This document shows positions 20,092 to 36,064 of a stretch of DNA of 43,935 nt, piece by piece. The position numbers and the translations under genes were made by a program. The DNA is from Candidatus Omnitrophota bacterium (GTDB taxonomy: Bacteria > Omnitrophota > Gorgyraeia > 1-14-0-20-64-10): assembly GCA_016177405.1 (NCBI GenBank), contig JACOVG010000030.1, forward strand, positions 1-43,935, written 5' to 3'. Within the stretch, counting starts at the first letter, position 1; each line of letters begins with the position of its first letter. The notes beneath the pieces were generated by a model. That model made no database searches. It was not told the origin of the DNA and saw only the letters and a program-made list of their open reading frames with translations.

Positions 20092-20160
20092 TTATTTTCA
20101 TTGGAAATATTGTTTTCCCATCCCGTGCCGTGTAGACTTGTGGTATCAACGATCAATCCC

Positions 20161-22974
20161 ATGACTCAACGCCAGTTCAGTTTTTTCGATAGAACCTTAG
20201 CCCTTTTGCTAAGCCTGGGCCTCGCTCTGCCCTCGGTGTCTGACACCTCCCGGGTGTCAGACACCGTTTTGCCTTCCTCTCACCTGCGCCCCCTCAACGC
20301 CGGCCTCGAGGAGCGCAACCCCGTCAACCAAGAGTTGGAGGCGGCCCTCGGCCGCCCCGCTTCTCCCCAACCGCTTCAGGGTTCCGGGCTGGAGGAGGAA
20401 GTTTTCAACTTTGCGCTGGCAGCGCGCGGGCTCGATCTTTCGAAACCGGGGGATGTGGAGATTCTCTTTGCGATTCGTAACTCGCTCCACAGCATTTCTC
20501 CTGAAGCCCTCGGAAAGCTGCCCAAAGCAAGGGTTCCGCCAGCCAAGGATTTAACCGGCCATATTGCCGAATCCTTCCTCGCTGGGCCTGACCCGGATGC
20601 CACCCGGATTCAAGGGATTGCCGCGATCCAGGTGGCTCCTGCGATTTTAAGGGAGCTTCGAGGCCTGCTTGACGTGGAGGATCAGGAATCCGGCCTGCTT
20701 CGGAACCCAGAGATTTCCCGCTTGATCTTTGAGGCTGCTACCCGCGGAGAAAAGAACTACCTTGTTTTTGAAAAAAACCGGTTGACCTTGAATCCTGTTT
20801 TTGTTCGGGAGGTCATGGCCGACGTCGAAACGGCCATCCAAGACTTGCAAGATTCCGATGAGGAAGGGCGAAACGCTGCCGGCATTGCGCTACTGGATGT
20901 GGCAGGTGGTTTCGGGTTTTATGAGCGGGTGCGCGCCGCTCTTGTGGTGGCGGAAACTAAAGCGTCAGAAAGGGGAAAAGAAATTCTGCGTCCCACCGTA
21001 GGTGCCATTGAGCGTATGGCCAAAGACGCCGATTTAAATCTGGATCAGCAGTCCCCAACCACTCCGCCACGACATCGGCTGCCGCCCGGCGCCGGGCTGG
21101 AGGAGCCGAAGGTTGAAATTACAAGTGCCTTCCTATTCCTTATTCCATTACATGAAAGGGATGGATTCACCCAACAAATTAAGGCATTGGCTGTTGATCC
21201 GACCTTAGGGGAGACTCCCCGGGTGATCAAGACGATCGAGACGTTTTACATTTTTGGGGAAGGACATAAACCGTACGAAGCCGGTACGAATAGCTTTCTC
21301 ACTTTACCCGTGAGCGCGGTGAAGGTTCCGGGGGGGAAGCTGATCGTCTACGTTGACGCGGCGCGGCTTGAGAGCATTCTTGGGAACCTAAGCGATCGCG
21401 GAGCTATGGACGGTGCCATGGCGCGAAAGAAGGTGAGCGAGTTTGAATTGAACATGGTTAAGGAGTCATCTTTTTTAAGGAAGTATTTGGGTTTAATGGG
21501 ATTATTTGAATTGGCGGCTGCTTTGCCGGCTCCGAAACGGTCTGTCCCACCCGGTCTTGAGAAATTATTGAGATCCTTGAGAACCGGAAGTTCGCGCTCT
21601 ATCCAAAGGAGGGAGGTTTCTTACGATGGGGGAGAAATAGGACTATCGGCCCAAGAGATAGAAACGGGCTGGAATGCAAAACCGCCTACCCTGAATTGGG
21701 ATGAAGCGTTAGGCAAATTATCCTTCGCGGACCCTCAAGTGTCTGCCGCGGTTACTCGGGCGATGAAGCAGTCGGAACCCGCGGGTTTCGCAGGGATTTT
21801 TTATGTGCATTCCTCCACATCAGGGCAGAAAACCGAAGAGCTCAATCTGGACGATCTCATTCTACAGCTCCTTTCGAGGCAAGTCGTATGGGACGAGACG
21901 TGGGAGGTGTTCAAGAAAGTTCCCGCCGCCGGGCTGGAGGAGGAATGGCGGGAAAGGGCGAAGGCTCTTCTTGAAATGTACGACTTGCTTCCAACGCTTG
22001 GGGAGTCGTTGGGAACCCAGGCAGGTCCGGGAGTGCTTTTGTCTGCCTTACTCGGAGCAGGCCGGCAAACATCTACGGCAGATGTTTTTGAACAATATTG
22101 GAAGGGTCTTGTGTACATCCTCTTTAATATGAAGGGAGATACGCAGGCGCTCTTGAGGCAGCTTCATGAGATGGACCAAAACGCACACATGAGAGGAACT
22201 TCTGCGGGATTAATCGTTTTGATGCGGCTGGTCCTGTTAGGATTTGTAAACAGCGAACCGGACAGCCTTCAACCCTTTTACCGCCAATTGAAGTTGACCT
22301 TGGAAACAATGATCGATCTCCCGGACTCTGCAGTTCAACCGAGCCCTGAAGTTCGGAAGTCTGGAGAGAAGCTTTTGGAAGAGGCATTACCCGCCATCGT
22401 GAAACGAACCGCGCAGATAATCGGGTATCCAAACCCGGACCGTTTCAACCCAACTCCCGACCCCGCCGGGCTGGAGGAGGGGGAGAAGTTTGGGTCGGTA
22501 AGGGAGTTTCTGGACTCACCGGCCGGGAAATGGTTACAGAACCGGGAACCAGGCCTTGCAAAAGCGGCCAATATCCTTGGAGGGGCCGCGTCTCAAATTA
22601 TTGTTGTGGGTGAGAGAGGCGCGCAAGAGGAGAACGTGATTGCCTACCACTACACCGATTGGCCGCGGGAGGTGAGAGCCCAATTGGAAAACAATTTTGT
22701 CCAGCCCGAACCTTATCCAGCGAATGGCAAGCTTGAGGAAGCTCGGACTGTCATCATCCAGCAGGAGGGGAAAGGTCTTCCGTCGGAGCCGAAACCTAAC
22801 AAGGTGCCCCGGATCGTCGTAAAGGGCCCTAAGGCGCTCAAAGGCCTCACGCCAGGTTTCGTCTATACGGTGGCGGTTGATGAAACATTTGCCGGCCAGG
22901 TCATTGGGCCCATCATTGGCGTCATCACCTTTGAGGATGAGCACGGCCGCACCCTCCACGCGGTCTTCGCGTAA
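20161..22974 (+). CDS. Large secreted uncharacterised protein with five [A/S]GLEE-punctuated segments
   Basis: ATG 20161 inside ORF 20101..22974; signal peptide RTLALLLSLGLALPS; AGLEE/SGLEE at 20299-20313, 20383-20397, 21091-21105, 21928-21942, 22465-22479. Confidence 0.85.
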   Translation: MTQRQFSFFDRTLALLLSLGLALPSVSDTSRVSDTVLPSSHLRPLNAGLEERNPVNQELEAALGRPASPQPLQGSGLEEEVFNFALAARGLDLSKPGDVEILFAIRNSLHSISPEALGKLPKARVPPAKDLTGHIAESFLAGPDPDATRIQGIAAIQVAPAILRELRGLLDVEDQESGLLRNPEISRLIFEAATRGEKNYLVFEKNRLTLNPVFVREVMADVETAIQDLQDSDEEGRNAAGIALLDVAGGFGFYERVRAALVVAETKASERGKEILRPTVGAIERMAKDADLNLDQQSPTTPPRHRLPPGAGLEEPKVEITSAFLFLIPLHERDGFTQQIKALAVDPTLGETPRVIKTIETFYIFGEGHKPYEAGTNSFLTLPVSAVKVPGGKLIVYVDAARLESILGNLSDRGAMDGAMARKKVSEFELNMVKESSFLRKYLGLMGLFELAAALPAPKRSVPPGLEKLLRSLRTGSSRSIQRREVSYDGGEIGLSAQEIETGWNAKPPTLNWDEALGKLSFADPQVSAAVTRAMKQSEPAGFAGIFYVHSSTSGQKTEELNLDDLILQLLSRQVVWDETWEVFKKVPAAGLEEEWRERAKALLEMYDLLPTLGESLGTQAGPGVLLSALLGAGRQTSTADVFEQYWKGLVYILFNMKGDTQALLRQLHEMDQNAHMRGTSAGLIVLMRLVLLGFVNSEPDSLQPFYRQLKLTLETMIDLPDSAVQPSPEVRKSGEKLLEEALPAIVKRTAQIIGYPNPDRFNPTPDPAGLEEGEKFGSVREFLDSPAGKWLQNREPGLAKAANILGGAASQIIVVGERGAQEENVIAYHYTDWPREVRAQLENNFVQPEPYPANGKLEEARTVIIQQEGKGLPSEPKPNKVPRIVVKGPKALKGLTPGFVYTVAVDETFAGQVIGPIIGVITFEDEHGRTLHAVFA
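20234..20266 (+). repeat. Perfect palindromic hairpin repeat inside signal-peptide region of CDS
   Basis: CGGTGTCTGACACC-TCCCG-GGTGTCAGACACCG, 14-bp stem, 5-nt loop. Confidence 0.95.
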
Positions 22975-22977
22975 ACG

Positions 22978-24123
22978 CTAAAGGGCGAGATCCTTCAGGA
23001 ACGCTTGCCAGGGGAGAACCTCAACCCCTTCGATCTTCTTGTGAATGTTCCCCAGGTAAACGAGGAGGGGGCGATGCTTCTTTCCATAATACTGCGCGAA
23101 GCTGCGCAGGCCCCGCAGGTCGGTCCCTCCCACGTTGGTGGAGGCCTTCACCTCGACCGCCAGGACTTGGTCTTTGGTTTCAACGATGAAATCCACCTCC
23201 GCGCCATGCTCGGTTCGGTAAGAGGAGATCCGGATCGGCTCGTCCTTGGCTAAGGCGCCGTGGACGAGCTGATTGAAGATGAGATGCTCAAAGAGCGCCC
23301 CGATTCGGTCGCTGGAGGCGGTAAAGTTGTTCAGGAGCCCATTGAGCACGCCGGTGTCGAAGAAGAAGAAACGGGGGCTTTGGACAAGCCGCCTGACTTC
23401 CGATTTCCTGAAGGCCTCGCAGCGCCGAAGGATGAGGGTGTCCTCCAACACCTCGAAGTACCGCAGGGCGGACTGACGCGGTATCTGGGCCAGAGAGGCC
23501 AGCTTGGACAAATCCAGGAACTTGCCGGCCCAGGCGGCGACGACGAAGAGAAACCTGGAGAAGCCCTCGATGTTCCGGGTGAGGGCCTCCGCTTGAATTT
23601 CCTCCTTCAGGTACGTGGCGGCATACGATCTAAGCGTCTTGCATTTTTCGTGGAAGTCGGGTTCCGTCCAGATTCCCGGCAGGGTCCCTGTTTCCAGGGC
23701 TTTCTTGACGTCCATCCGATGGTGGAGCTCGGAGGCCGTCAGAGGACCCAGGTGATAGGTGTGAATCCTTCCTGGAAGAAGGTTGGCGTTTCCCCGCTTG
23801 AGCTTGCTGGCGCTGGAACCGGTCAGAAGGAAGCGAATCGGCGGCCGCCCTTCGTCGATGATGGCCTGCAGGGTGTTGAGCAGACTGGGAAGCCGCTGGA
23901 CCTCGTCGATGAAAACGGTCTTGAACGATTTGGCCGCCAGGCGCTGCTCCAGCGCGGAGGGGTTTCGAGCAAACTCGAGGTAAGTGGGTTCGTGCGCCAG
24001 GTTGATGGTGAGGTCCGGGGCAAGGGAACGGATGAGGGTCGATTTCCCCGTTTGCCTTGGGCCCAAAAGGAGAATGCCCTTTTTGGACCTTTGGATAAGG
24101 GGGCCCAGGGTCCTGGCGATCAT
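22978..24123 (-). CDS. AAA ATPase with DUF4143-type C-terminal domain
   Basis: KGILLLGPRQTGKSTLIRSL, KTVFIDEVQRLPSLLNTLQAIID, FLLTGSSASKLKRGNANLLPGR, DFIVETKDQVLAVEVKAS. Confidence 0.9.
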   Translation of the reverse strand: MIARTLGPLIQRSKKGILLLGPRQTGKSTLIRSLAPDLTINLAHEPTYLEFARNPSALEQRLAAKSFKTVFIDEVQRLPSLLNTLQAIIDEGRPPIRFLLTGSSASKLKRGNANLLPGRIHTYHLGPLTASELHHRMDVKKALETGTLPGIWTEPDFHEKCKTLRSYAATYLKEEIQAEALTRNIEGFSRFLFVVAAWAGKFLDLSKLASLAQIPRQSALRYFEVLEDTLILRRCEAFRKSEVRRLVQSPRFFFFDTGVLNGLLNNFTASSDRIGALFEHLIFNQLVHGALAKDEPIRISSYRTEHGAEVDFIVETKDQVLAVEVKASTNVGGTDLRGLRSFAQYYGKKHRPLLVYLGNIHKKIEGVEVLPWQAFLKDLAL

Positions 24124-27257: not shown

Positions 27258-28970
27258 ATGCCTTCCCTAGAACAAGCGTACCAATATTGCCAGTGGCTGA
27301 CGCGCCGCCACTACGAAAACTTCCCGGTGGCCTCGGGGCTTCTGCCCAAGGCCCTGCGGCCGCACGTGGCGGCGGTCTACGCCTTTGCCCGCTCGGCCGA
27401 CGACTTTGCCGACGAGGAAAGGGATCCCAAAAAAGCGCTGGCGCGGCTGGCGAACTGGAGAGAAATGCTCGGCGCTCGCAATGACACCCATCCGATCTTT
27501 ATCGCCCTGGCCGACACGATCCGCCGGTTTGACCTTCCGCCGCAGCTTTTCCACGATTTGCTGACCGCTTTTGAGCGGGATGTGACGGTGAAGCGCTACG
27601 CCGCGTGGGACGATCTCCTCAACAACTACTGCCGGTATTCGGCCAACCCGGTGGGGCGGCTGGTTCTGCTTCTGTTCGGCCACAAGGAACCGCGCCTGCA
27701 CGAGCTTTCCGACTTTATCTGCACGGCGCTTCAGCTTACCAACTTCTGGCAGGACCTCTCGATGGATCTGGCCAAGGGAAGGATCTACCTGCCGCAGGAG
27801 CTTCTGCGCCGCCATGGGGTGACGGAGGAGTCCCTCTTCCAAGGCAAGCCCTCCGGAAATTTCGCGGCGGCGATGGAAGAGGCCGCCGGTTTCACCGAGG
27901 AGCTTTTCTGGAGGGGAGAGGCGCTTCCCTCTTGGGTGAGCGGCCGGCTCCGGTGGGAGCTTCGGGCGACCTGGCTCGGAGGGATGGCTGTTCTCAAGCG
28001 GACGACAAGGCTTCGGGTTAGAGGAAGCTGTAAGCGCCCGGCCTTGGGATGGAAGGACAAGCTGGCGATCGGCATGACAGCCATCTCCGTCAACGGAGGC
28101 GGCGGCTCGGCGGCTTACTGCCGCCGGGTCGCCGGAAAAAGCGGAAGCCATTTCTATCAGGCCCTGTGGCTTTTGCCGCCGGAGCGCCGGGAGGCGATGT
28201 TTGCCGTCTACAGCTTTTGCCGGGCGGTGGACGACTGCGTGGACGAAGGCAAACCGGCGGATCAAGCCCGCCGGGAGCTTGAGGGATGGAGGAGGGAAGC
28301 GGACGCCTGCTTTGAAGGAAGGCCCACCCATCCGATCACACGCGCCTTGTCTGGCGCGGTGAAGCGCTACAACATTCCCCGCCAGCTTCTATTGGATTTG
28401 ATCGTCGGAATGGAAATGGATCTTGAGAAAAAGCGGTACGCCACCTTTGAGGAGCTTCAGGCCTACTGCTACCACGCGGCCGGGGTGGTGGGTCTGATGG
28501 CGGTGCGGGTCTTCGGCTGCCGCAATCCCAAAAGCGACGAGTTCGCCATCGCGCTCGGCACGGCGTTTCAGCTGACCAACATTCTGCGGGACGCGGCCTC
28601 CGACGCCCAGCGAGGCCGGGTCTACCTCCCCGAGGAGGATCTCAAGCGCTTCGCGAACCCGGCACTCCCGGAAATGGTACCGGAGTTGCTGGCGTTTGAG
28701 TGCGAGAGGGCGCGCGGCTGGTTTGCCAAGGCCTACGCCGCGGTCACGGCCCAAGACCGCTGGGCCCTGACCCCGGCCCTGGCCATGGCCGCGGTCTACC
28801 GCCGGCTCCTGGATCGGATTGAGTCGGCCGGCCCTGCCGCGCTGGCCCAGCCCATCCGGCTTTCCACCGGTGAAAAACTCTCCCTTGCTTTGCGCGGCGC
28901 CTTCTTTTCAACCTCCAACGTCATCTCGAGTCCCGAAGGGACGAGAGATCTCTCACTTCGTTCGAGATGA
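27258..28970 (+). CDS. hpnC-hpnD: HpnC-HpnD fusion (two squalene/phytoene synthase-like domains)
   Basis: N-half AFARSADDFADEERD...TNFWQDLSMDLAKGRIYLP; C-half YSFCRAVDDCVDEGKP...TNILRDAASDAQRGRVYLPEEDL. Confidence 0.93.
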   Translation: MPSLEQAYQYCQWLTRRHYENFPVASGLLPKALRPHVAAVYAFARSADDFADEERDPKKALARLANWREMLGARNDTHPIFIALADTIRRFDLPPQLFHDLLTAFERDVTVKRYAAWDDLLNNYCRYSANPVGRLVLLLFGHKEPRLHELSDFICTALQLTNFWQDLSMDLAKGRIYLPQELLRRHGVTEESLFQGKPSGNFAAAMEEAAGFTEELFWRGEALPSWVSGRLRWELRATWLGGMAVLKRTTRLRVRGSCKRPALGWKDKLAIGMTAISVNGGGGSAAYCRRVAGKSGSHFYQALWLLPPERREAMFAVYSFCRAVDDCVDEGKPADQARRELEGWRREADACFEGRPTHPITRALSGAVKRYNIPRQLLLDLIVGMEMDLEKKRYATFEELQAYCYHAAGVVGLMAVRVFGCRNPKSDEFAIALGTAFQLTNILRDAASDAQRGRVYLPEEDLKRFANPALPEMVPELLAFECERARGWFAKAYAAVTAQDRWALTPALAMAAVYRRLLDRIESAGPAALAQPIRLSTGEKLSLALRGAFFSTSNVISSPEGTRDLSLRSR

Positions 28971-28971
28971 C
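28920..28971 (+). repeat. Palindromic dispersed-type repeat spanning hpnD stop and hpnE start
   Basis: GTCATCTCGA (28920-28929) / TCGAGATGAC (28962-28971) perfect ends; internal GTCCC-GAA-GGGAC. Confidence 0.95.
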
Positions 28972-30319
28972 CCCGGCTCACGTCGTGGTGATCGGCGGGG
29001 GATTCGCGGGGTTGAGAACGGCCGTCTCGCTGGCCGACGCCGGCATCCGGGTCACGGTGCTCGAGGCCCGCGGCAGCCTTGGCGGCAGGGCCCGCTCCTT
29101 CGCCGATCCGGCCACCGGGGAGGTGGTGGACAACGGCCAGCACCTTTTTCTGGCCGGATACGAGGCGACCCTTCGATTCCTCAAGCGCTTAGGCACCCAG
29201 GACCGCCTCATCTTTCAGGACCGGCTTTCGGTGGTTTTTGTGGAGCCCGGCGGCCGGGTGAGCCGGCTGGATTGCCCGCCGCTTCCCGCGCCGTGGCACC
29301 TGGCGGCGGGGGTGGCCGGGCTTTCCTCTCTGTCGCTGGCCGACAAATGGAAATTTATGAGGGTCTTAAAAGCGGTGTCAAGGGAAGAAGATGGTCAGAC
29401 GGTGGAGGAGTGGCTCACCCGGCAGGGTCAATCGGAGGGGAGCCGGCGGATCTTTTGGGATCCTCTCACGATCGCGACCCTGAACGAGATTCCCTCCAGG
29501 GCCTCGGCGTCAGGCTTACGGGCTGTTCTGCGCGTTCTCCTGAAAGGACCCTGGCCCAAGGCCCGGCTGGGAATGCCCAAGGTGGGGCTAAGCGATCTTT
29601 ACACCGAGGCGGCCCGCCGGATCATCGAGGAAAACGGGGGAGAGGTTCGGGTGAACGCGCCGGTGGCAGGGCTCACGCTCGAGGGATCCAGGGTCAGGGC
29701 CGCGCGGCTGGCCAACGGCTCGTCCCTGGAGGCCGAATCGGTGGTGAGCGCCCTGCCGCCCCAGGCCTTAAACCGCCTTCTGCCCGATGGGGTAAGGTCT
29801 TCCGATCCGGCCTTTTCGAACTTGGACCGGTTCTCAAGCTCGCCCATCGTTTCGGTGAACCTGTGGCTGGACCGGCCAGTCACGAAAGCGCTTTTTGTGG
29901 GGCTCATCGGCACCCGATTTCAGTGGCTCTTCAACAAGGAAGCGATCTTGAAGAAAGCGGGGATCGAGGCGCGCTACGTGGCCCTCATCTTGAGCGCGGC
30001 CCAGGCCTACATGGACCAGCCCAACGATGCCCTGGCCGCGATGGCCCTGGAGGATCTCGCGGCCTGTTTTCCTCACCTCGCGGCTGTCAGGCCGATCCGA
30101 TCCCAGGTGGTGAGGGAGCGGGACGCGACCGTTTCGTTGGGGGTCGGAATGGAGCGGTTCAGGCCCAGCGCTCGCACCCGCTTGGAAAACTTCTTCTTGG
30201 CCGGCGATTGGACGGCGACCGGTTTGCCGGCCACCATCGAATCGGCCGTGCTAAGCGGGGAAGAATGCGCTAGCCAGGTCATTTCCCATCTATGTCCTGC
30301 AACCTTGAATCGGCCTTAA
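28967..30319 (+). CDS. hpnE: Hydroxysqualene dehydroxylase / squalene-associated FAD-dependent desaturase
   Basis: HVVVIGGGFAGLRTAVSLADAGIRVTVLEARGSLGGRARSF...EVVDNGQHLFLAGYEATLRFL. Confidence 0.93.
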   Translation: MTPAHVVVIGGGFAGLRTAVSLADAGIRVTVLEARGSLGGRARSFADPATGEVVDNGQHLFLAGYEATLRFLKRLGTQDRLIFQDRLSVVFVEPGGRVSRLDCPPLPAPWHLAAGVAGLSSLSLADKWKFMRVLKAVSREEDGQTVEEWLTRQGQSEGSRRIFWDPLTIATLNEIPSRASASGLRAVLRVLLKGPWPKARLGMPKVGLSDLYTEAARRIIEENGGEVRVNAPVAGLTLEGSRVRAARLANGSSLEAESVVSALPPQALNRLLPDGVRSSDPAFSNLDRFSSSPIVSVNLWLDRPVTKALFVGLIGTRFQWLFNKEAILKKAGIEARYVALILSAAQAYMDQPNDALAAMALEDLAACFPHLAAVRPIRSQVVRERDATVSLGVGMERFRPSARTRLENFFLAGDWTATGLPATIESAVLSGEECASQVISHLCPATLNRP

Positions 30320-30333
30320 CCCTAAGGTAAAAT
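30305..30333 (+). promoter_or_regulatory. Candidate internal promoter before FPP synthase gene
   Basis: TTGAAT - 17 nt - TAAAAT. Confidence 0.4.
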
Positions 30334-30351
30334 AGGCAGTTACGACTTGTC

Positions 30352-31170
30352 ATGAATCTCACCGCTTACCTTAAAAAACGCAAAATTCTGGTCAACTCGG
30401 CGCTGAAGAAATGCCTGCCCGGCGCCCGGGAATTCCCAGGTCAAATCCACCAGGCAATGCGCTACAGCGTCCTGGGGGAGGGTAAAAGGATCCGGCCGAT
30501 CCTGGCCCTGGCCGCCTGCGAGGCGGCGGGGGGAAAGGCCCGGCAAGCCCTGCCGGCCGCCTGCGCCCTGGAGCTGATCCACGCCTACTCCCTGGTTCAC
30601 GACGATCTGCCCGCCATGGACGACGACGACTTCCGTCGGGGAAAACCCTCGTGCCACAAGCGGTTCGGTGAGGCGATCGGCATCCTGGCCGGGGACGCCC
30701 TCTTGACCCACAGCTTCCTTCTCCTTAGCCAGGGGCCTCTGGCGCCCTCGGCGCGCGTTCAAATCATCCGGGAGGTCAGCCAGGCCATCGGCACGCAAGG
30801 GATGATCGGCGGCCAGGTGGCGGACGTGATCTCCGAAAACGGCGCCCGCGCCGCCCAAATCGAGAAGATCCACGCGATGAAAACCGGCGCCCTGATCGCC
30901 GCCTCCGTGCGGGTGGGGGCGCTTTGCGCCGGCGCCTCGGCCAAGCGCTTCAAGGCCCTTTCCGGTTACGGCTCCCGGGTGGGCCTGGTTTTTCAATTGG
31001 TGGATGACCTCCTGGATTCCGACGGAGCGGTGAAGCTTTACGGCCGGCAGGCGGTTCGTCGAAAGGCCGAGCGCCTGACGGCGGAGGCGATCCGATCCCT
31101 TCGGCCGCTGGGCGCCGGGGGCGGCCCTTTAAGCGAGATCGCCCGCTTCATCTTAACGAGGAGCTCCTAG
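30352..31170 (+). CDS. ispA: Polyprenyl synthetase (farnesyl diphosphate synthase)
   Basis: GKRIRPILALAACEAAGG; LVHDDLPAMDDDDFRRGKPSCHKRFGE; VFQLVDDLLD. Confidence 0.93.
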   Translation: MNLTAYLKKRKILVNSALKKCLPGAREFPGQIHQAMRYSVLGEGKRIRPILALAACEAAGGKARQALPAACALELIHAYSLVHDDLPAMDDDDFRRGKPSCHKRFGEAIGILAGDALLTHSFLLLSQGPLAPSARVQIIREVSQAIGTQGMIGGQVADVISENGARAAQIEKIHAMKTGALIAASVRVGALCAGASAKRFKALSGYGSRVGLVFQLVDDLLDSDGAVKLYGRQAVRRKAERLTAEAIRSLRPLGAGGGPLSEIARFILTRSS

Positions 31171-31176
31171 GAAGCG

Positions 31177-33087
31177 ATGCCCAAGCTGATTGACGGGATC
31201 AACGACCCCAAGGAGTTGAGGGCCCTGCCGCAGGCCAGCCTGCCGCGGGTGGCCCAGGAGATCCGCGAGCTCATCATCGACAAGGTTTCGGCCACCGGCG
31301 GCCACCTGGCCGGCCCGTTGGGGGCGGTGGATCTGGTGGTCGCGCTTCACTACGTGTTTCAGACGCCGGAGGATCAGCTCGTCTGGGACGTCGGCTATCA
31401 GGCCTACGCCCACAAGATCCTGACAGGACGCCGCGACCGCTTTGGAACCCTGCGCCAATGGAAGGGCATCTCCGGTTTTCCCCACCGGGAGGAATCGCCC
31501 TATGATCTTTTCACCATCGGCCACGGCGGCACCTCCATCTCCACGGCGCTGGGGCTGGTCCGGGCCCGGGACCATCAGGGCAAGCGCAACAAGGTGGTGG
31601 CGGTCATCGGGGACGGCTCCCTGCCCGAGGGGATGGCGCTGGAGGGCTTGAACCACGCCGGCCACCTGAAGTCCGATCTCCTGGTGATCTTGAACGACAA
31701 CAAGATGGCCATTGCCCCGGCGATCGGCGCCCTGACCCACTACTTCACCCGGATCATCACCGACCCGCTGTACAACCGCTTCCGCCGGGAGGTGGAGAGC
31801 GTGATGTGCCGGGTGCCCCGTTTCGGCTTCAGGATCCTGCGGGCGGGCAAACGGCTGGAGGAGTCGCTCAAGAATCTTCTGGTTCCGGGCATCATCTTTG
31901 AGGAGCTGGGCTTCCGGTACTTCGGGCCGGTGGACGGCCACAATCTGGATGAGATGATCTCCACGCTGAACCACCTGAAGGGCCTGCCGGGACCCAAGTT
32001 CCTCCATGTGAGAACCGTCAAGGGGAAGGGCTACCCGCCGGCCGAGCAGAATCAGTGGAAGTACCACGGGGTGACCCCCTTTGATCCGGCCACCGGCGAG
32101 TTCCTGAAGAAGCCGCAGGCGGAGGGCTTCACCCAGCGGTTCGGCCAGGCGATGATCGGCTTGGGGCGGAAAGACCCCCGGGTGGTCGCCATCACGGCGG
32201 CCATGCCGGATGGGACAGGATTGGTGGAGTTCTCCAAGGCGCTGCCCGGCCAGTTTTACGACGTGGCCATGTGCGAACAGCACGCCGTGGCCTTCGCCGC
32301 GGGGCTGGCCCGCGGCGGGATGCGCCCCGTGGTGGCGATCTATTCCACCTTCCTTCAGCGCGGCTACGACCAGGTGATCCACGACGTCTGCATTCAAAAT
32401 CTGCCGGTTGTCTTCGCGATGGACCGGGCGGGCCTGGTCGGGGACGACGGGATCACCCACCACGGCCTCTTTGATCTGGCGTATCTCGGGGCCTTGCCCC
32501 GGATGACGCTCGCGGCCCCCAAGGATCTGGACGAACTGGAAGCGATGCTGGCCTTTGCCCTGCGCCACAACGGCCCGATCGGCCTCCGGTACCCCAGGGG
32601 CGGGGTCCTCCGGTTTCATCCCGAGTGGGCGATGGATCTTCCCAAGGAGGCGGCCCCCATCGAGCTGGGCAAGGCGGAGATTCTCTCCCAGGGCAGCGAT
32701 CTGGCCCTGGTGGCGCTGGGCTCGATGGTTTATCCGGCCCTGGAGGCGGCCAAGCTTCTGGAAGGGGAAGGGATCTCCACCACGGTGGTCAATGCCCGGT
32801 GGGCCAAGCCGATGGACATGGCCCTGTTTGCCGGCCTGGTGAAGGAGCATCGCGCCCTCCTTGTCGTCGAGGAGGGGGTGGTGAAGGGGGGTTTCGGGGC
32901 GAGTCTCCTGGCGGCGGTTGAAGAGCACCGGTCCAATGGCTTTGCCGTCAAGGTGATGGGGATCCCCGACGCTTTCTTTGAGCATGGAAAACGGGAGATC
33001 CTGCTTGCGCAGGCGGGATTGACCCCGTCGGCGATGGCGGCCTCGGCCAAGGAGCTTCTTTCCAGGAGCCCGGTCTATGCTCGCTAG
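31177..33087 (+). CDS. dxs: 1-deoxy-D-xylulose-5-phosphate synthase
   Basis: GGHLAGPLGAVDLVVALHYVF...WDVGYQAYAHKILTGRRD; VIGDGSLPEGMALEGLNHAG; FFGPVDGHN-like RYFGPVDGHNLD. Confidence 0.96.
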   Translation: MPKLIDGINDPKELRALPQASLPRVAQEIRELIIDKVSATGGHLAGPLGAVDLVVALHYVFQTPEDQLVWDVGYQAYAHKILTGRRDRFGTLRQWKGISGFPHREESPYDLFTIGHGGTSISTALGLVRARDHQGKRNKVVAVIGDGSLPEGMALEGLNHAGHLKSDLLVILNDNKMAIAPAIGALTHYFTRIITDPLYNRFRREVESVMCRVPRFGFRILRAGKRLEESLKNLLVPGIIFEELGFRYFGPVDGHNLDEMISTLNHLKGLPGPKFLHVRTVKGKGYPPAEQNQWKYHGVTPFDPATGEFLKKPQAEGFTQRFGQAMIGLGRKDPRVVAITAAMPDGTGLVEFSKALPGQFYDVAMCEQHAVAFAAGLARGGMRPVVAIYSTFLQRGYDQVIHDVCIQNLPVVFAMDRAGLVGDDGITHHGLFDLAYLGALPRMTLAAPKDLDELEAMLAFALRHNGPIGLRYPRGGVLRFHPEWAMDLPKEAAPIELGKAEILSQGSDLALVALGSMVYPALEAAKLLEGEGISTTVVNARWAKPMDMALFAGLVKEHRALLVVEEGVVKGGFGASLLAAVEEHRSNGFAVKVMGIPDAFFEHGKREILLAQAGLTPSAMAASAKELLSRSPVYAR

Positions 33088-35011
33088 CCCGGCCGCCGAT
33101 TTGCGCCTGACCGACCCCACCGCCACGGTCCCGCCGGCTCTGGCCCGCGCCTGCGAACAGGCCCAGCGGTACCTCCTTTCCAAGCAGGACCCCGAGGGAT
33201 TCTGGGTGGCCGAGCTGGAGGCCGACACCACGCTGGAGTCCGACACGATCAAGCTGATGCATCTCTTGGGAAGGGTGGATCAAGACAAACAGGAGCGCCT
33301 CATCCGGACAATCCTCAAGAATCAACTGCCGGACGGCGGCTGGCCCATCTACGCGCGAGGCCCGGCCGAGCTCAACGCGTCGGTCAAGGCCTACGCGGCC
33401 CTCAAGCTCTCCGGCCGCCCGGCCGACGACCCGGTCCTCGCGGCGGCCCGTAGAACGATTCTGCGCCTGGGGGGTCTGGCGCGGATCAACAGCTTTGAGA
33501 AGGTGTACCTGGCGCTGTTCGGCTGTTATCCCTGGGAAGAGGTCCCGGCCCTCCCGCCGGAGCTTGTCCTTCTTCCGAATTGGTTTTACTTTAACCTGTA
33601 CGAGATCGCCTATTGGTCCCGCACGATTCTCGTTCCTCTGGCCGTGGTCTATGCCACCCGGCCGATGGCGCCGCAGGCGGCCTTGAACCTCGATGAGCTC
33701 TGGACGGACCCCAAGAGCCGGAGGGCCCGGATCACGAACCTCCAAAAAGGGGGAGCCCTCTGGCGGACCTTCTTTCTTTCGGCCGACCGGCTCTTGAAGG
33801 CCTATGAGCGTTCGCCCTTCAAGCCCTTGAGGCGCCTGGCCCTGCGGGAGGCCGACCGGTGGATCACCGACCGGCTGGTTGAAACCGACGGGCTGGGGGC
33901 CATCTTTCCGGCGATGTTGAACGCCGTCTTCGCCCTCAAGGGTTTGGGCTACCAGGATGGGGATCCCCTTTTCGAGAAGCAGATCGAGGAGCTGGCCCGG
34001 TTGGAGCTGGCCGACGGCGATGCCCTGAAGGTTCAGCCCTGTTTCCCTCCGATCTGGGACACGGCCTTGGCCATGTACGCCCTGGGAAAATCCGGCCAGC
34101 GCTCCCCGGAGCAGGAGGGGCTCACCCGGGCCGGCCAATGGCTTCGGTCCAAGGAGATCAGGCAGTGGGGAGACTGGAGGATCAAAAACCCCGAGGGCCG
34201 CCCCGGCGGATGGGCCTTTGAGTTTGACAACCCTTACTACCCGGACGTGGACGACACGGCTCAAGTGCTCCTGGGGCTGGCGCACAGCCGGGCGGCCGCG
34301 GTCTCCGACGGGGTTTTCCGGCGGGGGATGGATTGGGTCTTGAGCATGCAAAACCGGGACGGTGGATTCAGCTCGTTCGATAAAAACAACAACCGCCAGG
34401 CCCTGACCCACTTTCCCTTTGCCGATCACAACGCCATGCTGGATCCCTCCTGCCCGGACATCACCGGGAGGATCCTGGAGCTGATGAGCCTGGCGGGATT
34501 CCGGCGCGGGCATCCGGCCCTGGAAGCCGCGGTGGGCTATCTTCACCGGACCCAGGAGACGGATGGAACCTGGTTTGGGCGCTGGGGAGTGGGCTTTCAT
34601 TATGGCACGTGGCTGGCTTTGCGGGGACTGCGCTCGGTGGGCGAGCCGATGGAGAGCCTGCGCTATCAGAGGGTGGGGCGGTGGTTTGCCACCCGGCAGA
34701 ATCCGGATGGGGGCTGGGGCGAAAGCTGTCGCGCCTACGATGATCCTTCGGTGAAGGGTCAGGGGGAGTCCACCTCCTCCCAAACGGCGTGGGCCCTGAT
34801 GGCCTTGATGAGTCTGGGTCAGGTGGCCGAGCCGGCCTTCCAACGGGGGATCCGCTGGCTGCTCACCCGGCAGGGTCCGGAAGGGGACTGGCCGGAGGGC
34901 CCCTTCACCGGCACCGGATTTCCGCGGGTTTTCTATCTCAAGTACCACTTCTACCGGATCTACTTTCCCTTGCTGGCCTTGACCGAGGCCCGGGAATTCT
35001 TTAAGGAATAG
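33077..35011 (+). CDS. hpnF/shc: Squalene-hopene cyclase
   Basis: GFWVAELEADTTLESD; FEFDNPYYPDVDDTAQV (DxDD); repeated QW-type motifs (QNRDGGFSSF, QNPDGGWGES). Confidence 0.96.
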   Translation: MLASPAADLRLTDPTATVPPALARACEQAQRYLLSKQDPEGFWVAELEADTTLESDTIKLMHLLGRVDQDKQERLIRTILKNQLPDGGWPIYARGPAELNASVKAYAALKLSGRPADDPVLAAARRTILRLGGLARINSFEKVYLALFGCYPWEEVPALPPELVLLPNWFYFNLYEIAYWSRTILVPLAVVYATRPMAPQAALNLDELWTDPKSRRARITNLQKGGALWRTFFLSADRLLKAYERSPFKPLRRLALREADRWITDRLVETDGLGAIFPAMLNAVFALKGLGYQDGDPLFEKQIEELARLELADGDALKVQPCFPPIWDTALAMYALGKSGQRSPEQEGLTRAGQWLRSKEIRQWGDWRIKNPEGRPGGWAFEFDNPYYPDVDDTAQVLLGLAHSRAAAVSDGVFRRGMDWVLSMQNRDGGFSSFDKNNNRQALTHFPFADHNAMLDPSCPDITGRILELMSLAGFRRGHPALEAAVGYLHRTQETDGTWFGRWGVGFHYGTWLALRGLRSVGEPMESLRYQRVGRWFATRQNPDGGWGESCRAYDDPSVKGQGESTSSQTAWALMALMSLGQVAEPAFQRGIRWLLTRQGPEGDWPEGPFTGTGFPRVFYLKYHFYRIYFPLLALTEAREFFKE

Positions 35012-35020
35012 GAGAGCGCA

Positions 35021-36064
35021 ATGGCGGTTTCCATGGGGCAGGGCTTGGCGGTGGCCCGCTACATCCTGGGCCAGAAGCTTAAAGGGGTGAAGCGTTTTCC
35101 GCTCGTTCTGATGCTGGAGCCCCTGTTCCGGTGCAATTTGGAGTGCGCCGGCTGCGGCAAGATCCAGTACCCGGAGGAGATTCTAAAAAAGAGGCTTTCC
35201 GCCCAGGAGTGCGAGGAGGCGGCCCTGGAGTGCGGGGCGCCGGTGGTTTCAATCGCCGGGGGCGAGCCCCTGGTTCATCCCGAGATGCCCGAGATCGCCC
35301 GGAGGCTCGTGGCCAGGCGGAAGTTCGTTTACCTGTGCACCAACGCCATCCTCCTGTCCAAGAGGATCAAGGATTACACCCCCTCGCCCTATTTCCGGTT
35401 CAGCATCCACCTGGACGGTCTGGAGCAGACGCACGACCAGGCGGTCTGCCGCCAGGGGGTCTTTAAGCTCGCGGTGGAGGCGATCCGCCAGGCCAAGGGG
35501 GCCGGCTTCCAGGTTTCCACCAACACCACGATCTTCCTGGGGGCCGATCCCAAGGAGTACCGGAGGATGTTCGACTTCCTGACCGATCTGGGGGTGGACG
35601 GGATGATGATCTCGCCGGGCTACCCCTACGAGAAGGCTCCGGATCAGGAGCATTTCCTCCGCCGCGGCGAGACCCAGGCCCTTTTCCGAAAAATCCTGGA
35701 TCAGGCCGACCCGCGCTGGCGCTTCAACCATTCCTCCTTCTTCCTCGAATTCCTTCAGGGTTACCGGGATTACCAGTGCACCGCTTGGGGCAACCCCACC
35801 CGGAACATCTTCGGCTGGCAGAAACCCTGCTACCTCATGTCGGACGGCTACGCCAAGACCTTCCGGGAGCTTGTTGACGACACCCCCTGGGAGCGGTACG
35901 GCACCGGACGGGATCCCCGGTGCGCCGACTGCATGGTCCACTGCGGCTACGAGCCCTCGGCGGTGGCCGATGCCATGGGTTCCTTCAGGAACATGCGCAA
36001 GGCCTTCGCGAACGACTGGAAAGGGAAAGCGGCTGAAAGAGAGCCTGAAGAAGCACGGGTTTAA
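35021..36064 (+). CDS. hpnH: Adenosyl-hopene transferase HpnH (radical SAM)
   Basis: [64 protein letters not shown]. Confidence 0.95.

Follow-up and report, generated by a model that had tools for sequence, protein, structure and literature searches.

What does a short peptide word, repeated five times in one protein, mark, and does it belong to that protein or to the genome that encodes it? The question arises from an uninterrupted ORF of 937 aa at positions 20161-22974 (+ strand) of a 43,935-nt stretch of a Candidatus Omnitrophota genome, referred to here as the window. The initial annotation placed [A/S]GLEE at codons 20299, 20383, 21091, 21928 and 22465, and all five positions proved exact; the DNA identity that it noted in four copies was likewise confirmed, with copies 2-5 reading GGGCTGGAGGAG and copy 1 reading GGCCTCGAGGAG. 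From the composition of the protein itself, 0.07 GLEE would be expected against the five found (P(≥5) = 1.7e-8). The reading developed below, which we give about an even chance of being correct, is that [A/S/T]GLEE is a protein-level junction mark of exported polyproteins in one Omnitrophota order, recognised in trans, most likely cut by a protease, and serving in addition as a seam for module exchange.

The ORF, for which an alternative TTG start is possible at 20101, reads as an exported multidomain protein ('polyprotein'), with all features on the + strand. Its N-terminus carries a signal-like hydrophobic segment, TLALLLSLGLAL, by a hydrophobicity test (20194-20229), and an LR dipeptide (in SSHLRP, 20284-20289) stands between this segment and motif 1 (AGLEE, GCCGGCCTCGAGGAG, 20299-20313). 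Motif 2 (SGLEE, TCCGGGCTGGAGGAG, 20383-20397) completes a close first-second pair that is typical of the N-terminus in this family. Module A (231 aa, 20398-21090), motif 3 (AGLEE, preceded by PPG, 21091-21105), module B (274 aa, 21106-21927), motif 4 (AGLEE, 21928-21942) and module C (174 aa, 21943-22464) follow, the three modules having no known homologue. Motif 5 (AGLEE, 22465-22479), whose homologous junction reads AGLEE in genome G002 and AGAEE in G004, precedes module D (164 aa, 22480-22971), which ends in TFEDExGxxxHAxF. Module D is the only module of the ORF with homologues (in G002, G004 and G005), and in G002 and G004 the homology begins at the motif; the remainder of the protein has none, except that the N-terminal signal region resembles two other proteins of the same genome. 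Neither the protein nor its segments had a significant match in Pfam, NCBIfam or PDB, in keeping with the annotator's failure to recognise a described family, and a first scan of the genome contigs with the window protein as query gave no match. The AlphaFold model had a mean pLDDT of 35.5, too low to use.

The AGLEE-coding pattern was counted 121 times across the entire 1.70-Mb genome and its reversed control 12 times. This count is genome-wide, unlike the ORF-level counts, which come from a targeted sample of 617 kb around motif sites that was used for ORF calls. Within these 617 kb, 182 copies of GLEE, against 4.6 expected, fall in 36 ORFs that have two or more each, and single-residue variants of GLEE in the 36 ORFs lie near background. 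Chance or composition as the source of the motif is ruled out by the genome-wide and per-protein counts. The motif thus reaches well beyond the single protein. Of the two findings that the initial annotation named as refutations, absence from other proteins and orthologues is contradicted by the presence of the motif in dozens of other proteins of the genome and in orthologues, and a position inside a single domain by the Pfam comparison below. The residue at -1 is Ala, Ser or Thr in 167 of the 182 copies (A 101, S 38, T 28), and Pro is enriched about threefold at -3, -4 and -7. GLEE ORFs are long (median 1,658 aa; other genes, 384 aa) and comparatively poor in GC (0.592 vs 0.645), as is the stretch around the window ORF (about 0.53-0.57 vs about 0.65). 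With a total of 67.7 kaa, the 36 ORFs account for about 12% of the genome; the longest member seen measures at least 14.8 kb, running off the sampled stretch.

These proteins share an architecture. Of the 29 GLEE ORFs whose 5' end is complete, 27 have a signal-like hydrophobic segment, compared with 28% among other genes; this call, like export itself, is based on a hydrophobicity test and not on a signal-peptide predictor. Between this segment and the first GLEE, 25 of the 29 complete members have LR, often after A-x-A, and the others have FR, VR or LK in its place. One GLEE lies directly after the signal segment and often another 8-25 aa from the C-terminus; there is mostly one per junction, the first-second pair accounting for 10 of the 13 gaps under 40 aa. 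The domains joined in this way are, by their Pfam assignments, members of unrelated families and mostly of cytoplasmic type. They include enzymes (FBPase-GlpX, transaldolase, GH77, GT5, GT2, phosphosugar mutase, PfkB, aminotransferase, GNAT, methyltransferase, ARMT1, metallophosphatase, Fic, NAGPA and PIG-L among the assignments) as well as HTH, sigma-70 regions 2-4, MraZ, WD40, HEAT and TPR domains. In several of these domains catalytic motifs can be recognised; we take RMDH and HDT in GH77, and DDGS...QRTRW in GT2, to be examples. No GlpX-type FBPase was found in the genome other than one inside a GLEE protein, and ARMT1, fused in a GLEE protein here, is free-standing in the class outgroups and in G009. 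An AlphaFold model of an FBPase-bearing relative, built from a two-sequence alignment, reached a mean pLDDT of 34.8 and was too low to use. Among individual members, L038:4830-7835 is a signal-bearing GLEE protein in which sigma-70 regions 2, 3 and 4 precede several HTH domains; it resembles a transcription factor and is apparently exported. One of the short members is a GNAT protein of 417 aa (L038:9001-10251).

The mark lies between domains rather than inside them, as the initial annotation had supposed. In the 19 GLEE proteins with Pfam matches, 1 of 114 GLEE falls within a Pfam span, at its very end, where 19.9 would be expected (P = 6e-9). A comparison of 80 motif proteins from nine genomes, paralogues and orthologues, gave 86 homologous blocks; 78 of the 261 internal block ends fall within 10 aa of a motif, compared with 14.2 at random (maximum 25 in 200 trials). 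In the FBPase protein of G001 an extra 382 aa sits exactly between two AGLEE, and that of G007 retains the first and last modules alone. Among orthologues of the window genome, G001 and G007 (52-58% identity), GLEE positions persist while linker lengths change. Relatives of the FBPase module confirmed by Tblastn are Candidatus Omnitrophota MAGs (JAHFFF01, JACPXU01). These comparisons indicate that the GLEE word is also the place where modules are gained, lost, duplicated or swapped, and we suggest that the presence of one short word at all junctions lets it act as a seam.

Homology breakpoints at the motif would also be produced by a seam at the DNA level alone, that is, a linker cassette spread by copying or microhomology recombination and having no role in the protein. 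Several site pairs are consistent with this: at L058 (59/683/1233), L062 (415/625/1034) and the pair L039-1017 and L059-3651, 18-30 nt upstream and the GLEE codons are common and the sequences then diverge immediately, and at L054 (667/2022) the downstream side alone is common, corresponding to a duplicated module bounded by motifs. The codons are also biased beyond background (CTG for Leu in 73% vs 31%), although this bias may be partly due to descent. Against such a cassette, most site pairs have no flanking DNA in common: among 16,471 pairs, six share at least 20 nt upstream and two share at least 20 nt downstream, with two mismatches allowed. In-frame one-base neighbours of GGGCTGGAGGAG comprise 65 synonymous cases (of nine possible kinds) but only 7 non-synonymous ones (of 25 kinds), the latter at chance level, and all 63 exact 12-mers lie in frame 0 of GLEE ORFs, with none elsewhere in the sampled genes. 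Since the codons vary and the residues stay constant, selection acts on the peptide. Between genera whose proteins are 50-60% identical, moreover, the motifs stay in place although the linkers diverge. We therefore regard an exclusively DNA-level origin as distinctly unlikely, and a DNA-only repeat was rejected as the sole cause of GLEE. Among the three functions first proposed (linker, cleavage or sorting mark, DNA seam), the junction mark and the shuffling seam are upheld, and the purely DNA-level explanation falls away; a cleavage or sorting role would suit the findings best. Within single proteins (L058, L062, L054), pre-GLEE linkers are homogenised, GPPHDR[RQ][TA]GLEE and GQGAGLEE each occurring three times, and DNA identity stops right after the GLEE codons.

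The same codons raise the question of whether GGAGGAG acts in the coding DNA as an internal Shine-Dalgarno-like pause, timing the folding or export of each domain. This heptamer stands at the end of 122 of the 182 GLEE sites, compared with 20 of the 70 remaining LEE of these proteins, but it is also found at 45 of 93 LEE in other proteins; a pause would require neither a fixed frame nor fixed residues, yet the 12-mer never occurs in other frames or in other sampled genes. We consider such a pause highly improbable.

How the mark is spelled in other genomes bears on who reads it. In a survey of 285 genomes of the phylum, none outside the order of the window genome stood clear of its control. 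Within that order, represented by eleven genomes, G003, seemingly GLEE-negative, has long signal-bearing proteins with GLEA (29), GLES (11), GLET (7) and GLEE (1), and G004 uses GQEE (24), GLEE (14) and GAEE (13). Homologous junctions pair GLEE in the window genome with GAEE or GQEE, for instance at both ends of a GNAT module that is 62% identical. A conserved C-terminal domain with three GLEE/GMEE at fixed positions (L073:3784-14040, residues 3226-3419; L045:3315-9581, residues 1894-2089; L138 in G004) has not switched to GQEE in G004, suggesting that not every GLEE need be functional.

A structural role, in which GLEE ends a linker or caps a helix N-terminus and so spaces neighbouring domains, would fit the Pro/Ala/Gly-rich upstream side and the spacing of S/T and E, which is like that of the capping box, the [S/T]xxE helix N-cap. 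Ala, however, is a poor N-cap, yet it occupies -1 more often than any other residue (101 of 182), the chemically similar GIEE, GMEE and GVEE are at background, and a cap would leave the genome-wide change to GQEE or GLEA unexplained, all of which makes a structural role very unlikely.

The exactness of the motif, its position, selection at the peptide level and the concerted respelling together argue for a trans-acting reader. According to the model that we favour, Sec export of the chain would come first, and a trans-acting factor dedicated to this task, most likely a protease, would then read the motif and cut the chain into separate units, the N-terminal tag first and then each domain; an altered specificity of the reader would result in a whole-genome switch to GQEE/GAEE or GLE[A/S/T], and modules could be exchanged at the short word that all junctions have in common. 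It is from the sequences that we infer cleavage, a recogniser and a destination for the GLEE proteins. A motif that is exact, recurs along one chain and changes its spelling in concert would fit any trans-acting reader, binder as well as cutter, and GLEE could instead be a recognised but uncut tag, providing repeated docking sites for a binding partner, a chaperone or a surface scaffold that holds the exported chain. One copy per junction, one after the signal segment and many at 8-25 aa from the C-terminus suit cutting better than docking, and on these grounds we favour a protease acting after export and think an uncut tag unlikely.

Several findings weigh against this model: no cognate protease or other recogniser of GLEE was identified, a few motifs within one conserved C-terminal domain kept their spelling in G004, and comparable giant ORFs of other Omnitrophota families have no such word. 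The S8 subtilases, a subtilase being also what PatA of the cyanobactins is, were rejected as the cognate protease as their distribution does not track the motif across motif-bearing genomes: PF00082 had no match in G002, G003, G007 and G009, which carry the motif (genomes 80-95% complete). In its fullest form, to which we assign somewhat less than an even chance, our proposal is that some 40 exported polyproteins, which take up about 12% of the genome, are read at [A/S/T]G[L/Q/A]E[E/A/S/T] by one factor specific to the order, probably a new protease. Dozens of enzymes, with sugar-metabolism, glycogen and sigma-factor-like domains among them, would in this way be set free outside the cytoplasm and perhaps in another cell, code and reader having co-evolved to different spellings in sister lineages.

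Giant ORFs occur in other Omnitrophota families as well: 9,919 aa in G017 (C70; L174, L175), 2,676 aa in G016 (C5; L176) and 8,868 aa in G024 (C37; L177, L178). All three contain GH77, and that of G017 also contains beta-CASP and sigma-70 region 4, but no recurrent tetrapeptide comparable to GLEE was found in them. This suggests that the long multidomain format predates the mark or is more widespread, the mark itself having apparently been added in this order. A candidate counterpart in a G020 giant ORF was dismissed as an ordinary YNLG-type repeat. At the N-terminus of the G017 giant ORF, NTLQVPS follows a signal-like segment and is reminiscent of the LR signature. Giant ORFs of more than 20 kb with few annotated domains, proposed to mediate contact with other cells, have been described in Omnitrophota (Seymour et al., 2023, PMC10066038); a term search of that text for linker, polyprotein and signal peptide gave no match. 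The GLEE proteins come from the same phylum and are likewise very long ORFs with few annotated domains, but the window ORF, at 2.8 kb, falls short of 20 kb, and the longest member seen, incomplete in the sampled stretch, measures at least 14.8 kb.

Other systems resemble the GLEE proteins in part. In Euglena, RBCS and LHCP are made as signal-bearing polyprotein precursors whose units are separated by decapeptide linkers that are excised after transport (PMC4938576). Both arrangements place several units in one ORF with a conserved short linker peptide between them (here 182 GLEE in 36 ORFs); in contrast to the repeats of one domain in a eukaryotic plastid, the units between GLEE match unrelated Pfam families, the word is common to about 40 bacterial genes, and its cutting is something that we infer. 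The cyanobactin precursor recognition sequence GLEAS is cut by PatA (PMC4282754), a case of cleavage following a G-L-E-x peptide in a precursor, and GLEA and GLES of G003 are close to it in letters; those precursors, however, are short RiPP precursors and S8 genes do not follow GLEE, and the likeness may be a coincidence. Sorting signals such as LPXTG and PEP-CTERM are short exact motifs on exported proteins whose spelling varies with lineage, as GLEE is, but they are single, C-terminal and accompanied by a membrane anchor, whereas GLEE is internal and present in several copies per protein. Rickettsia palindromic elements, about 100-150 nt of palindromic DNA within ORFs, are similarly repeated in-frame in many genes, but the DNA shared between GLEE sites is 12 nt, to which related pairs add no more than about 30 nt upstream. 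No published description of a 'GLEE motif' or of a comparable punctuation system was found in the open-access PMC literature, nor did we find there an account from bacteria in which a single exact tetrapeptide, specific to a lineage, sets unrelated domains apart in dozens of exported proteins.

For a phylum of uncultured, ultra-small bacteria, GLEE indicates where largely unannotated giant proteins can be divided into domains, and it provides an example of a very short repeated word acting as a module-exchange seam. If it is a cleavage site, it would represent a polyprotein strategy that spans a bacterial genome and relies on one reader, a counterpart of the linker-cut polyproteins, and the GLEE, GQEE and GLEA lineages would form a natural experiment in motif-reader co-evolution. 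The presence of normally cytoplasmic types among the apparently exported domains poses the question of their site of action, be it the periplasm, the surface or a partner cell.

Several observations concern the surroundings and relationships of individual genes. Two head-to-tail GLEE giants, L056:1-10254 and L056:10293-16979, lie about 39 nt apart and carry the same C-terminal module, as if duplicated, and the C-termini of about 76 residues in L041 (C24) and L066 (C17:1-8000), on different contigs, are 85% identical, including two GLEE sites. The neighbours of the window ORF are dehydrogenase and hopanoid-type genes. An AAA_14/DUF4143 ATPase gene (22978-24123, - strand) is convergent with it at a distance of 3 nt, and nearby in the window a hopanoid-type cluster (27258-36064) comprises squalene/phytoene synthase, amine oxidoreductase-type, DXP synthase, squalene-hopene cyclase and radical SAM-DUF3463 genes.
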